Position numbers and translations under genes: made by a program. DNA of 42,364 nt from a virus: positions 1 to 42,364 of IMG/VR virus record IMGVR_UViG_3300032291_001319. One strand, 5' to 3'. A model generated the notes under the pieces. That model made no database searches. It saw only the letters and a list, made by a program, of their open reading frames with translations, and was not told where the DNA came from. Shown piece after piece: positions 5,730-10,133 of this stretch (its first letter is position 1; each line of letters opens with the position of its first letter).

Positions 5730-5737
5730 TATTTATC
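5730..5737 (-). promoter_or_regulatory. T4-type late promoter for the gp20 head operon
   Basis: The minus strand reads GATAAATA, matching seven of eight positions of the T4 late consensus TATAAATA. Transcription would start about 6 bases downstream, leaving a leader of roughly 15 bases before the gp20 ATG. It sits in the 32-base gap between the tape-measure stop and gp20, with no -35 element, as expected for a gp55-dependent promoter. Confidence 0.6.
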
Positions 5738-5740
5738 ACT

Positions 5741-7933
5741 CTACATGCTGGCCTGCAAAATTCCTGATGTAAGTGTATTATTTTTCTGCATGCTACTCAA
5801 AATTTGAGTTAGTACACCAGTTTGTTGATGCACTGCGGCGGTTAAACTTGAACTATCTAAACTTACCGGAATTGAACGATTATCTGGCAATGGCACTACA
5901 GCTTCTGTGCCATGCAGTGTTGCCGCAAACCCACTAACCGATCCTGACAAGACACCACCACCTGCGGCACTAGGTGGGCTATATGTTCCTTCCAGTGTCC
6001 CGCCTTTGCCTTGGTAAGGTGCTTGTTTTGATGAAGCTTGAGCTCCAGCCAATGCTTCACCTGCGCCTGATCCTGTGTCTGTTGATGAAAATACCTTGCC
6101 ATCAACACCTGATAACAGACCACCTAATCCTGGTAATATAGCATTTGCTTTACCAGCACTGGCTCCGCCACCGCCACCTAATCCAGTTAATTGTTGAATT
6201 GCTTGAACAATACCAACTTTGCCAGTGATGATGTCTAACCCTGTGTTTACTACTTTGAATGTCATTTCTGTTGCAGACATCATAGCTGCCGTATAGGCCG
6301 GCAGTGCAGATCCTGCAATACCTTCCATACGATTTTGGAATGATGTCATCACTTCAACTAGACCAACATAAGTTCCGGTTAGCCCATCGCTGATACTAGC
6401 CTGTTGTTCTGCAGCTGCCATGCTGGCTTCAGCCGCACTGGGATCATACCGGTATTGTCTTAAGGCATTACCAAATTGGCTCATACCTTGTGCTACCGCC
6501 GATGTACCACTAGGGTTCATTAATGTAGCAAAGTCTGTAGCACTATCTCCTGCAATTCTATAAGCAGTAGCCGCTTCTGCTAGATTACGCTGTGTAGCAG
6601 TAACCATGTTGGTGTTGCCCATTGTGACCTGCTGAGCGGTTTTATTCAACATGGCCATGATCTGCTGATTACCAGCAATTACCGGATCAGTGATGGTACC
6701 ACCAGCTAATAATTGTGCTAGTGCAGACTGTAGTTTTGGACCTTGTTGCCCTGGTAGCGCAGCCATGGCAGCATACGCATCTTGAAATGCTACCGATTGG
6801 CTGGCAGTTAATTTAGTCATTAGTGCGCCGCGCTGTGCTTCTGCACGTGCCTGATCTAGTAATTTTTGTGCGTCTTGACCAGTGAGATCACTAAGGACTT
6901 TTAGATTTTTTGCATAGGCATTAGTATAGGTAGCAATATCACCCTCAGTTATGTTAGTCAGATCCATGCCCAATGATCGCATCTGCGCCATGGCCGCTGA
7001 CATAACCTTGCCTTGTTGTTGGAAGGTATACCCTAATGCCAACAGAGAATCACGCACACTTACACCACTTTTAGTAGTAGTATTTGCTAGTCCGCTAAAT
7101 CCTTTAGCTAGTAATCTTGTAGCATCGCCTGCGGTGAAGCCCATGGCAGTAATTTCTTCTCTGCTGGCCACAACAGATTTGGTAAAGTTTACTATACCCA
7201 CACCCGATTGATTGGCGTACATGGCCATTTCTGTCATGCCGCCTGCAAAGCTGGCCGCGATAGTGCTGAAATCTGCTAGTTGGTCTGCACGTTTTTGAAA
7301 TTCTTTGGCCAGTACTTCGTTGGCTGCTGTGGCTATTTGATTGGCAAAATCAACAACCTGATGTGCTAGGTCACCAAATGCACCTACGATAGCAGCTAGA
7401 CCATCGCCAATAAATGGTACCCACCCCACTGCGGCTTTACCTAAGGCCGTGATAACGTCTACACTAATTTTGGCTATGCTGGTAGTAAGATTAATAGTCG
7501 TTTGCAGTATACCTTTACCAGCTGCAATAGGATCTCTGGCCATCTCATCATAGGTAGAGATCATGCTGGCGAACACACTGGCTGTGGTCACTGCCAGTGT
7601 TGCTGAAATTCCTTTAACACCTTCACGTAGAGATTTACCTGCATCGCTAGCATCACGTTTGAACTGCTTAAACATTTCACTGGATTCTTTAGACTGTTTT
7701 TTAGCAGCCTCAATTTCTTTGTCCAGCTGACTGGTAGCTTCTTTGACAGATTTGGTATTTTTCTTTCTAGCCTCTTCTTCTTTGCGTATAGCTTCAAGTT
7801 TGGCTTTTTCTTCAGCTTGTTTGGTTCGATCACTCTTGCTAACAGCCTTGAGGATTTCCTGCATGGTGCTTTCTTGCGCCGCACCTTCTACAGTAACTTC
7901 ACCTACTCCGGGTATATCAATTTTAATTGCCAT
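5741..7933 (-). CDS. Tail tape-measure-like protein (gp29 equivalent)
   Basis: A 730-residue protein with features of a tail-length ruler. There is a highly charged predicted coiled coil at about residues 25-110 and hydrophobic segments near 110-210 (ISATLAVTTASVFASMIS; VGWVPFIGDGLAAIVGAFGD). A long Ala/Gln/Ser-rich helical middle follows, then a Gly-rich C-terminal region with GFAATLHGTEAVVPLPD, a sequence common near the end of tape-measure proteins. The ATG at 7933 is chosen over the upstream one because AGGAAA lies 6 bases before it and the product starts cleanly MAIKIDIPGVGEV. The gene diverges from the gp26-like gene, whose family acts in tail-hub assembly, which supports the call. Direct homology to T4 gp29 cannot be shown here. 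Confidence 0.75.
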   Translation of the reverse strand: MAIKIDIPGVGEVTVEGAAQESTMQEILKAVSKSDRTKQAEEKAKLEAIRKEEEARKKNTKSVKEATSQLDKEIEAAKKQSKESSEMFKQFKRDASDAGKSLREGVKGISATLAVTTASVFASMISTYDEMARDPIAAGKGILQTTINLTTSIAKISVDVITALGKAAVGWVPFIGDGLAAIVGAFGDLAHQVVDFANQIATAANEVLAKEFQKRADQLADFSTIAASFAGGMTEMAMYANQSGVGIVNFTKSVVASREEITAMGFTAGDATRLLAKGFSGLANTTTKSGVSVRDSLLALGYTFQQQGKVMSAAMAQMRSLGMDLTNITEGDIATYTNAYAKNLKVLSDLTGQDAQKLLDQARAEAQRGALMTKLTASQSVAFQDAYAAMAALPGQQGPKLQSALAQLLAGGTITDPVIAGNQQIMAMLNKTAQQVTMGNTNMVTATQRNLAEAATAYRIAGDSATDFATLMNPSGTSAVAQGMSQFGNALRQYRYDPSAAEASMAAAEQQASISDGLTGTYVGLVEVMTSFQNRMEGIAGSALPAYTAAMMSATEMTFKVVNTGLDIITGKVGIVQAIQQLTGLGGGGGASAGKANAILPGLGGLLSGVDGKVFSSTDTGSGAGEALAGAQASSKQAPYQGKGGTLEGTYSPPSAAGGGVLSGSVSGFAATLHGTEAVVPLPDNRSIPVSLDSSSLTAAVHQQTGVLTQILSSMQKNNTLTSGILQASM

Positions 7934-7944
7934 GGTTTTCCTAC

Positions 7945-7952
7945 CATAAATA
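7945..7952 (+). promoter_or_regulatory. Late promoter for the gp26 cassette
   Basis: The plus strand reads CATAAATA, one base from the T4 late consensus. Predicted transcription start is near 7958, giving a leader of about 33 bases to the gp26 ATG at 7991, with GGAG at 7976-7979. It is the mirror image of the minus-strand motif at 7969-7976. Confidence 0.5.
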
Positions 7953-7968
7953 TTAAGACTACTTATAC

Positions 7969-7976
7969 TATTTATG
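7969..7976 (-). promoter_or_regulatory. Late promoter for the tape-measure gene
   Basis: The minus strand reads CATAAATA, an exact inverted copy of the plus-strand motif at 7945-7952, with 16 bases between them. Predicted start is near 7963, giving a leader of about 30 bases to the tape-measure ATG. Because the two motifs point toward each other, each transcript crosses the other promoter. Confidence 0.5.
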
Positions 7977-7990
7977 GAGTTCAAAAACCA

Positions 7991-8836
7991 ATGGAATCAT
8001 CTATCAACAATAACCCGCTGGCCAAGCATTTTAGACAGCCTGCTATCTATTTAAAACTGCCCAGTGGCGGTAGATTTTATCCCGAAGGCACATTAGACAT
8101 TGGTGCTACAGGTGAAATTCCTATATATCCCATGACAGTTAAAGATGAACTCCTACTTAAAACTCCAGATGCCTTGATGAACGGCAGCAGTATTGTAGAA
8201 ATGATCCGTAGCTGTTGTCCAAGTATTAAAGATCCTTGGAATATGCCATTGGTTGATTTAGATCCTATACTGATTGCTATTCGTTTGGCCAGCTATGGCG
8301 AGGGCATGGACATGACCAGTAATTGTACACATTGCAGTGCTGAAAACGAACATACCATCGATCTACGCAAAGTCCTAGACAGTTTAAAACCTATTGCCAA
8401 CTATGACAAACAGAATTTCTTACATGGATTGGTATTTGATATACAACCGCAGACATTCCAAGAAATCAACACTGCTGGCCAGATCTCTTTTGAGCAACAG
8501 AAAATAGTAGCAGCGGTAGAAAACAGTGAATTGACAGCAGAAGAGAAAAAAGCACAGTTTGATGCCAGCTTTAAAAAACTCACTGATCTTAATATCAGTA
8601 CATTAGTAAACTGTATCCGCAGTATCACCACTGAAGATAATCAAATAGTTAGAGAAAAATCACTGATTATAGATTTCTTAAATCAAACAGATCGCAAGAC
8701 CTACGACGAAGTTAGAGACCTAGTAACAGATATTGTCAAAGCCAATGCTCTCGAATCGATGCCAGTTGTTTGTTCGTCGTGCGAAACAGAATATAAAATT
8801 AATTTAGATTTCAATCAATCAAATTTTTTCGTATAA
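7991..8836 (+). CDS. 26: gp26 family baseplate-hub / tail-assembly protein
   Basis: A 281-residue protein of the T4 gp26 type (T4_baseplate family), needed for hub assembly in T4 and found next to the tape-measure gene. The N-terminus has the family-typical AIYLKLPSGGRFYPEG (residues 18-33), then VKDELLLKTPDALMNG. Two Cys pairs, CTHC at 112-115 and CSSC at 261-264, look like the halves of a zinc ribbon. The ATG at 7991 is chosen because the open frame upstream of it runs antisense inside the tape-measure gene. The last codons (TCA AAT TTT TTC GTA TAA) form slippery sites that probably direct a fraction of ribosomes into the -1 frame. The gene would then give a 281-residue protein and a 356-residue fusion. 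Confidence 0.82.
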   Translation: MESSINNNPLAKHFRQPAIYLKLPSGGRFYPEGTLDIGATGEIPIYPMTVKDELLLKTPDALMNGSSIVEMIRSCCPSIKDPWNMPLVDLDPILIAIRLASYGEGMDMTSNCTHCSAENEHTIDLRKVLDSLKPIANYDKQNFLHGLVFDIQPQTFQEINTAGQISFEQQKIVAAVENSELTAEEKKAQFDASFKKLTDLNISTLVNCIRSITTEDNQIVREKSLIIDFLNQTDRKTYDEVRDLVTDIVKANALESMPVVCSSCETEYKINLDFNQSNFFV

Positions 8837-8904
8837 GGCTTTTGACTCTCTCTAACGAGGAAATTGAAGACTTGTTAGAAAAAATGGAAGTTGAGTCAAA
8901 AGCC
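8821..8904 (+). promoter_or_regulatory. Programmed -1 ribosomal frameshift signal
   Basis: All parts of a -1 frameshift site are present in order. Two overlapping slippery heptamers are in the correct phase: A AAT TTT at 8821-8827 and T TTT TTC at 8824-8830. A 6-base spacer follows (8831-8836) that ends with the zero-frame stop TAA. Then comes a perfect 12-bp inverted repeat, GGCTTTTGACTC at 8837-8848 with GAGTCAAAAGCC at 8893-8904. Inside its 44-base loop a second stem of 6 bp is possible (TCTAAC 8851-8856 with GTTAGA 8874-8879). The -1 frame is open from 8803 to 9060. Shifted translation would read NQSNFF then RIRLLTLSNEEIEDLL. Confidence 0.85.
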
Positions 8905-9060
8905 ATGCGAGATAATGTGTTAAGGATATGTTGGTACATGCGTGGTAGTATCAGCTACAATGATGGCATGCTATTAAGTAATGTAGATCTTGAAATAATC
9001 AATAAGATTATCAAAGACAATTTAGAAACAACTCAAAAGAGCAAACTTCCATTCTTTTAA
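8842..9060 (+). CDS. -1 frame extension of gp26 (gp51-position tail chaperone module)
   Basis: An open frame in -1 phase to gp26, overlapping its end, that codes for a compact helical domain (SNEEIEDLLEKMEVESKAMRD; ICWYMRGSISYNDGMLLS) ending in KLPFF. No ATG exists before codon 15. The only early start is a TTG at 8842 with AAGG just 3 bases away, inside the stem of the frameshift signal. The simplest reading is that it is made mainly as a C-terminal extension of gp26: 76 residues after the slip, 356 in total. In T4 the gene after 26 is 51, also a hub-assembly factor. Equivalence is positional, not demonstrated. The arrangement beside a tape-measure gene parallels lambda G/GT chaperones. Confidence 0.75.
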   Translation: MTLSNEEIEDLLEKMEVESKAMRDNVLRICWYMRGSISYNDGMLLSNVDLEIINKIIKDNLETTQKSKLPFF

Positions 9061-9076
9061 GATGTCTACGACATCT
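9060..9076. terminator. Hairpin at the end of the gp26 cassette
   Basis: A perfect 7-bp inverted repeat (AGATGTC, loop TAC, GACATCT) overlaps the last base of the stop codon of the gp26 extension. There is no T-run on either side, so a classical intrinsic terminator is not supported. It may act as a 3' end stabiliser or weak terminator between convergent genes. Confidence 0.35.
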
Positions 9077-9174
9077 GCATTTCGCTTGCGCTCATGCATT
9101 TCTTTCAAATTTAATTACTTTAGATTTAACATAAACACTGTATGCTCTTAACTGTATCATCCAGATATCAGTCA

Positions 9175-9199
9175 CAATTTACCTATCCGAGGTAAATTG
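9175..9199. repeat. 9-bp inverted repeat hairpin
   Basis: CAATTTACC at 9175-9183 pairs perfectly with GGTAAATTG at 9191-9199 across a 7-base loop, TATCCGA. It lies in the non-coding gap and is not followed by a T-run. Confidence 0.6.
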
Positions 9200-9309
9200 C
9201 AACCGCCGCATCATCCGAGTACTGCGTCACACTAACTAAAAGAGATTGTAATCACCTACACGGAAGCGGTCAGCCTGTACTCCCTACTCTAGATTTATCT
9301 GGCGGTAGC

Positions 9310-9339
9310 ATTCATAGCCATAGTTAGCTAACTATGAAT
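9310..9339. repeat. 18-bp perfect palindrome with an alternative outer stem
   Basis: CATAGTTAG at 9319-9327 is followed directly by its reverse complement CTAACTATG to 9336. ATTCATAG at 9310-9317 can instead pair with CTATGAAT at 9332-9339. The two pairings exclude each other, so the element could act as a dyad DNA-binding site or a two-state RNA fold. Confidence 0.6.
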
Positions 9340-9388
9340 AACTCCTGGGTCGGTTTGTTTCGTTGCCCAGATCATTTGGTTTTTACAC

Positions 9389-9511
9389 CTAATTGATATT
9401 GCCGTTGCCATCCAGTGTATAGTCTTCTCTATACGTTCCAAGTGCGGCCACAACGCGAGCACCATCTCCTCTGGATACAGAACTTAATCTGCAATAAGGC
9501 TGTTTTATTCG
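9389..9511 (-). pseudogene. Possible C-terminal gene remnant
   Basis: One minus-strand frame reads SSVSRGDGARVVAALGTYRE followed by DYTLDGNGNIN and a TAG at 9391-9389. It looks like the end of a real phage protein, but it has no start codon and begins against the end of the GIY-YIG-like gene. Further short protein-like fragments in other frames occur downstream (for example ADRFRVGDYNLF near 9250-9280). The parent family was not recognised, and a chance open frame in less AT-rich DNA cannot be ruled out. Confidence 0.3.
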
Positions 9512-9939
9512 TTTATTATTAAATCTTTTACGGAGCCTTTACCAAGTTTAATTTGTATGATACCGTTGTAGTTGTTTTCTTTCAACAGCACACCTTCCTT
9601 AAATTGATAGTACGCTTCCATGTAGTTGGTTTCACCGCGGCTCTTACATAAATGTATGATCTCACGTGTAAACTTGTCTTTTCCTAGTCTAGCCATATCT
9701 TCAACTAGTCTAGCACTTGAACCCCAATAGTCTTTCCAATCAGTTTCAACTGTTTCCCTGCGCTTGTTTTTCTTGCCTTTTAGAGGTGGTCTCTTTTTGA
9801 TGGTAGTAAAATATTTGCGGCCTACGTAATCGTAGCCATTTGTTGTATTGGTTATTCGATAGATAAAGCCATAGAAGTCACCAATATCCTCAGACTCAAA
9901 AGTTTTACCGTTATAAGTCCAAGGATATTCATATGACAT
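9505..9939 (-). CDS. GIY-YIG-like endonuclease
   Basis: A 144-residue protein with the hallmarks of the GIY-YIG nuclease fold in degenerate form. FIY at residues 25-27 (GFIYRITNTTNG) replaces GIY, YVG at 38-40 replaces YIG, Arg41 follows as in active enzymes, and Glu108 (NYMEAYYQF) could be the metal-binding glutamate. A basic stretch (KKRPPLKGKKNKRR, 48-61) may contact DNA. T4 Seg proteins are homing nucleases of this superfamily, but this one is short and lacks an obvious second DNA-binding module. It is the last gene of the minus-strand gp55-gp46 block and borders the 444-bp non-coding region. A DNA-repair or homing role is inferred. Confidence 0.65.
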   Translation of the reverse strand: MSYEYPWTYNGKTFESEDIGDFYGFIYRITNTTNGYDYVGRKYFTTIKKRPPLKGKKNKRRETVETDWKDYWGSSARLVEDMARLGKDKFTREIIHLCKSRGETNYMEAYYQFKEGVLLKENNYNGIIQIKLGKGSVKDLIINE

Positions 9940-9947
9940 AGAGTTAT

Positions 9948-10133
9948 TTATTTAGAACCTAGTGCGTTTTTCTTCTCTTGAATTTCTGCACGTCTAGCTT
10001 TTGCTAACTTTGCTAAATCACCTAATGCACCACGAGCACGTGCCGCTGAAGCCTTGACGCCTTTGCCTTCAAATTTTTCTGATTCTGCTACATATAGTTC
10101 TACTGCTGCTAAAATATCGTCATGAATTGCCAT
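9948..10133 (-). CDS. Histone H1-like (Hc1-type) small protein
   Basis: A 61-residue, Ala/Lys/Arg/Glu-rich helical protein. The segment GKGVKASAARARGALGDLAK followed by LAKARRAEIQEKK resembles the N-terminal helical pattern of the chlamydial Hc1 / bacterial H1-like family, which in bacteria binds and compacts DNA. The ATG is preceded by AAGGA about 10 bases upstream. It lies between the 66-residue basic protein and the GIY-YIG-like gene, 8 bases from the latter, so all three are likely cotranscribed. Binding to phage or host DNA is an inference from family resemblance. The protein lacks the Lys/Ala-rich tail of full Hc1. Confidence 0.6.
   Translation of the reverse strand: MAIHDDILAAVELYVAESEKFEGKGVKASAARARGALGDLAKLAKARRAEIQEKKNALGSK

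Follow-up and report, generated by a model that had tools for sequence, protein, structure and literature searches.

A putative -1 frameshift signal with a covarying stem at the end of a T4-like gp26-type tail assembly chaperone gene

The locus

The DNA analysed here, called the window, is the whole 42,364-nt stretch of IMG/VR record IMGVR_UViG_3300032291_001319. It carries a gp26-type gene whose 3' end overlaps a small open reading frame in the -1 frame, and between the two lie a pair of slippery heptamers, a short spacer and a stem (Table 1). The gp26 protein matches PF12322 (T4_baseplate) over residues 22-280 with E 3.7e-18, and phrog_150 with E 2.2e-22; the curated cut-off of PF12322 is exceeded by the window protein, by T4 gp26 and by T4 gp51. 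The last 100 residues of T4 gp51 also match phrog_634. As both T4 proteins belong to PF12322 and gp51 has in addition the phrog_634 end, T4 gp26 is taken as the short form and gp51 as the long form. The AlphaFold2 model of the window gp26 is confident (pLDDT 87), and its best viral structural matches in BFVD include T4-like baseplate hub (assembly) proteins. No convincing match was found among solved structures (Foldseek best E 0.2; VIA Z <8, helical segment only), so that gp26 is assigned to the chaperone family from sequence families and from predicted structures of viral proteins. Two CxxC motifs of gp26 (residues 112-115 and 261-264), invariant in all 61 aligned relatives, suggest metal-binding sites in the chaperone.

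Table 1. Features of the gp26-type locus; positions are those of the window.
Feature	Position	Strand	Evidence or remark
Tape measure protein, presumed client, divergent neighbour	5741-7984	-	phrog_167 tail length tape measure, E 3.3e-5
gp26-type gene, tail assembly chaperone short form (TAC-N), 281 aa	7991-8836	+	PF12322, phrog_150
A AAT TTT, overlapping heptamer, probably incidental	8821-8827	+	40/69 non-redundant loci
T TTT TTC, slippery heptamer, putative working site	8824-8830	+	in phase in 95/95 loci, 69/69 non-redundant
-1 frame extension, putative TAC-C of long form, 76 residues then TAA	8830-9060	+	protein conserved in all relatives
Spacer GTATAA, 6 nt, holding zero-frame stop TAA (8834-8836)	8831-8836	+	
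Putative stimulatory stem, 5' arm GGCTTTTGACTC	8837-8848	+	perfect pairing, covariation, synonymous recoding
Predicted inner hairpin of 9 bp within the 44-nt loop (8851-8859 pairing with 8871-8879)	8851-8879	+	minimum-free-energy fold
Putative stimulatory stem, 3' arm GAGTCAAAAGCC	8893-8904	+	perfect complement of 5' arm

A preliminary description of this DNA had placed the cassette beside a tape measure gene. The two are indeed adjacent, but they are divergently transcribed, the tape measure gene lying on the minus strand with a true start that is likely the ATG near 7934. Most jumbo relatives also have a large opposite-strand gene in this position beside gp26. The T4 late promoter TATAAATA has ATAAATA as its core, a sequence that the window holds 8 times against 17 expected, i.e. 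less often than chance. Four copies, at 5730-5736 (-), 7946-7952 (+), 7969-7975 (-) and 9945-9951 (-), immediately precede the portal gene, gp26, the tape measure gene and the ORF at 9505-9939. These are probably late promoters, and the divergent pair would serve the chaperone and the tape measure. On the 3' side of the cassette, about 440 nt (9061-9500) carry no obvious gene, and the minus-strand ORF 9505-9939 resembles by eye a GIY-YIG-type protein.

Both heptamers are in phase with the gp26 frame, which opens with ATG 7991. The stem is a perfect 12-bp pairing that begins 6 nt 3' of T TTT TTC. The preliminary description had proposed the heptamers, the 6-base spacer with its stop and the 12-bp stem as one signal, and every coordinate that it gave for them is correct. 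It also gave the -1 frame as open over 8803-9060 with no ATG before codon 15, and predicted products of 281 and 356 residues. Indeed, no stop interrupts this frame between 8803 and 9058-9060, where it ends, and an ATG first appears in it at 8884 (codon 15 from TTG 8842, codon 28 from 8803); translation gives 281 aa in the zero frame and 280 + 76 = 356 aa for the fusion, with the junction residues ...N-F-F-R-I-R-L-L.... When both strands of the whole 42-kb window were scanned for a heptamer followed at a spacing of 4-9 nt by a perfect stem of at least 10 bp, this was the sole site. Simulated windows (n=30) held on average 0.13 such sites each, or 0.000 where 12 bp was demanded, no heptamer with a 12-bp stem arising in any of the 30.

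The slippery site among relatives

Relatives, i.e. isolate jumbo phages and IMG/VR contigs, were gathered by protein similarity without use of the heptamer. The set contains 95 loci including the window, and 69 once near-duplicates are removed. The two heptamers named in the preliminary description are both present and in phase, but their conservation differs (Table 1); because A AAT TTT is not conserved and T TTT TTC is universal, the latter is taken as the working site. The codon that precedes TTT TTC specifies eight different residues (Asn, Ser, His, Ala, Asp, Tyr, Arg and Thr), and its third base is always T. From the codon usage of the gp26 genes, a third-position T in all 68 loci counted has a chance of ~10^-17 if loci that share ancestry are treated as independent. 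The TTT TTC pair itself has a chance of 0.2 per sequence by codon usage, shared ancestry being uncorrected. In most loci the zero-frame stop ends either 6 nt or 15 nt past the heptamer, which indicates that the position of the stop is free and that the spacing of heptamer and stem is what is kept. A search for the exact site in genome contigs gave no match.

The downstream stem

The RNA of this site has a folding energy of -34.6 kcal/mol, with z = -6.3 relative to dinucleotide shuffles; of 200 shuffles, none was as good. At each locus the best stem with its start 3-11 nt past the heptamer was taken and set against those of 200 recodings that preserve the -1 frame protein; the 72 loci treated in this way are the 69 core loci plus P-SSM2, S-PM2 and phiM12. 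The stem goes beyond coding constraint in 58 of the 72 (<=5% of recodings reach the observed stem), and that of the window was matched by 1 of 3000 synonymous recodings. It is not universal, as some relatives, e.g. L002, L003, L007, L087, L089, L090 and HTVC008M, have no stem above the null.

In most related loci of the window's clade the core of the long-loop stem starts 6 nt past the heptamer. Among 32 long-loop sequences, alignment columns 18 and 77 pair as U-A in 26 and as C-G in 6, with mismatches in 0, and double changes are found also at columns 21-74, 22-73 and 23-72. The covariation score is 0.19, versus 0.09 for shuffles and 0.02-0.10 for slid controls. A second clade has a different hairpin, with its 5' arm in nearly the same place and its 3' partner across a 16-nt loop, and this hairpin covaries too. 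Loops measure 40-55 nt in the window's clade and 7-9 nt in the cyanophages. Both stem classes beat all 500 shuffles and all slid controls in cells changed on both sides and in covariation score; the percentages of paired cells are inflated in both, since the classes were sorted by stem presence or type, and the recoding test is unaffected by this sorting. The RNAalifold consensus does not contain the inner 9-bp hairpin of the window fold. Against Rfam the signal gave no match, the best hit (E 0.6) scoring well under the gathering cut-offs.

The preliminary description had looked to homologous gp26 loci for a decision. Their comparison gives a universal heptamer, a stem above the null in the majority of loci and compensatory changes; relatives without a slippery site, which it had named as evidence to the contrary, were absent from the set, and some relatives carry a junction ATG in addition.

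How did different stems come to follow the same heptamer? We give even odds to the idea that the T4-like chaperone signal has long included a stem under selection, and that this stem has been rebuilt from different 3' arms as the heptamer stayed fixed. If so, the ratio of short to long form would be tuned by RNA structure, a need that T4 would have escaped by giving each form a gene of its own, 26 and 51. The stem offers a directly testable handle on how the ratio is set. A covarying stem of changing topology may be a new detail; it has no mention in the literature examined, where Vladimirov et al. 2022 is represented by papers that cite it.

The C-terminal domain in the -1 frame

In all 95 loci the -1 frame is open and runs on from the heptamer, beginning with FFR or FFQ. 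The extension has 72-79 codons in the non-redundant set, and two near-duplicates end at contig ends. Its protein is conserved and predicted to be helical, the AlphaFold2 model of the window's extension being confident and all-helical (mean pLDDT 91.6).

Could the downstream ORF be a small gene in its own right, with its translation depending on reinitiation or coupling past the gp26 stop? It is annotated in this manner, as small ORFs starting with ATGA or TAATG, in Serratia BF, GAP32, Phosso, PBECO4, Vibrio 2.275.O, KVP40 and P-SSM2. An ATGA, whose ATG is the fourth -1 frame codon when counting starts at the heptamer, is present at the junction in 8 of 68 loci besides the slippery site, and there is one locus of the TAATG type. 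In 52 of the 68 loci, however, the first 15 codons of the -1 frame have no ATG or GTG, and in 22 they have no ATG, GTG or TTG. Protein conservation begins already at the FFR junction, upstream of any start, and a separate gene leaves the conservation of heptamer and stem unexplained. It is therefore an improbable account of the locus, if the strongest of the alternatives. In the ATGA loci (L004, L005, L023, L026, L029, L035, L036 and L039) the gp26 stop overlaps the ATG right after the heptamer. Because of this overlap, such phages could produce a free C domain next to the fusion; separate initiation of the domain is thus possible in the junction-ATG lineages, though not in the window.

Direct matches to the window's C domain came from Atu_ph07 and Phosso alone, apart from a weak one (E 0.6) in a Vibrio phage. 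Profiles of the window-clade C domain and of gp51-C align with hhalign probabilities of 4.3 and 0.3 over small alignments, at the same position and in a similar register. As profile similarity is weak, the equation of the window C domain with gp51-C rests mainly on position and architecture.

Proposed frameshifting and remaining alternatives

The locus combines an in-phase heptamer of the form X XXY YYZ, an open and conserved -1 frame that overlaps the zero frame, and a structure 5-9 nt downstream that is conserved beyond coding need, all of which are expected of -1 frameshift signals. It also has the TAC-N homology to T4 gp26/gp51 and the position adjoining a tape measure gene that mark T4-like chaperones. 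Judged from the sequences, a functional programmed -1 frameshift that makes short and long tail assembly chaperones, as in lambda G/GT, is very probable (about 0.93). The preliminary description had read the locus in the same way, and the universal heptamer, the conserved -1 frame and the covarying stem uphold it. The stem, 6 nt downstream, would slow ribosomes decoding T TTT TTC, and we infer that a minority of them would slip back one base by tandem slippage of two Phe tRNAs. These would read 76 more codons and produce the 356-aa long chaperone (TAC-NC) beside the 281-aa TAC-N. If they act like lambda gpG/gpGT, the N domain would coat the tape measure protein and the C domain would recruit tail tube subunits.

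Might the slip occur instead in transcription, with polymerase slippage on the T run giving mRNAs that encode the fusion? The run is homopolymeric, and it extends to T8 in HTVC008M and T7 in phiM12; in all 69 core loci, however, it is held at T6 followed by C. A polymerase would hardly slip efficiently on as few as six Ts, and the covarying stem at 6 nt is the kind of structure that ribosomal frameshifting needs, which leaves transcriptional slippage with a very small likelihood. Least credible of all is a coincidence in which the FF motif, invariant in the protein, is kept for protein reasons beside an unrelated ORF, since the T preceding TTT TTC stays the same whichever of the eight amino acids its codon specifies, the -1 frame encodes a conserved protein and the stem beats synonymous recoding.

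Relation to other phage systems

Ribosomal frameshifting, our preferred reading, can be compared with what is found in other T4-like phages. An in-phase T TTT TTC with a C domain in the -1 frame is common to the cyanophages P-SSM2 and S-PM2 and to KVP40; phiM12 has T TTT TTT (T7) and HTVC008M the T8 run. In these five the -1 extension matches phrog_634 or is annotated as gp51-type, the phrog_634 matches fall in the -1 frame at the gp26 end, and the KVP40 record notes that ORF as similar to the gp51 C-terminus. A stem follows the site in P-SSM2 and S-PM2, and a weaker one in KVP40. Unlike the window, these three have hairpins with shorter loops and an ATG close to the junction; their C domain can be recognised as similar to T4 gp51-C, and the next large gene is on the same strand.

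T4 itself differs further. The end of its gene 26 (GAGTTCTTTGAGTTACTATAA; GAGTTCTTTGAG...) has no heptamer and is followed by gene 25. Judging by these sequences, T4 has lost the slippery site, and its short (gp26) and long (gp51) forms are separate paralogous genes. Vladimirov, Gautam and Davidson (2022, Virology 566:9-15) reportedly found frameshifting conserved in several T4-like groups, with T4 using genes 26 and 51 instead. The 95 uncultured and cultured loci support the view that tail chaperones made with a frameshift are common across T4-like phages at large, the separate gp26 and gp51 of T4 being the exception.

Frameshifting of the G-T kind is widely conserved in long-tailed phages, T4 excepted (review PMC5009743). 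The lambda G/GT system resembles the window, as read here, in a -1 slip shortly before the short form ends, the small C-terminal domain and the gene beside the tape measure, and in neither case would either product be expected in virions. It differs in its unrelated sequence, its other slippery heptamer and its tape measure gene, which lies downstream in the same operon.

The preliminary description had called the gp26/gp51 position one where a frameshift is not usually annotated. The view that it is unexpected there does not stand, as the available passages of PMC10885494 and PMC12846349 already cite frameshifting in T4-like TACs. According to the former, citing Vladimirov et al. 2022, some T4-like phages do without frameshifting and have a short chaperone gene together with a long, fused one; according to the latter, citing the same study, poly-T slippery sequences occur in T4-like TAC-N genes. 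The window shares with these T4-like TACs (gp26 short, gp51 long) the PF12322/phrog_150 family, the short and long forms and the reported poly-T site. It is thus a further, well conserved case of a known mechanism. The TAC locus of phage Adele (Vandenendeviridae/Andersonviridae) is similar in its -1 frameshift, its conserved GTTTTT and its extension misannotated as a separate gene, as described in the available part of PMC12846349; it belongs to other phage families, and that part describes no stem.

Misannotation of the extension also extends to the present set. Gene callers miss or mis-start the C domain, and the long chaperone is consequently missing from annotations. In other records the domain is entered as a separate hypothetical gene; Pseudomonas phage Cassandra (L001) and RaK2 (L008) have no gene for it, and in Atu_ph07 (L004) it is given an internal start.
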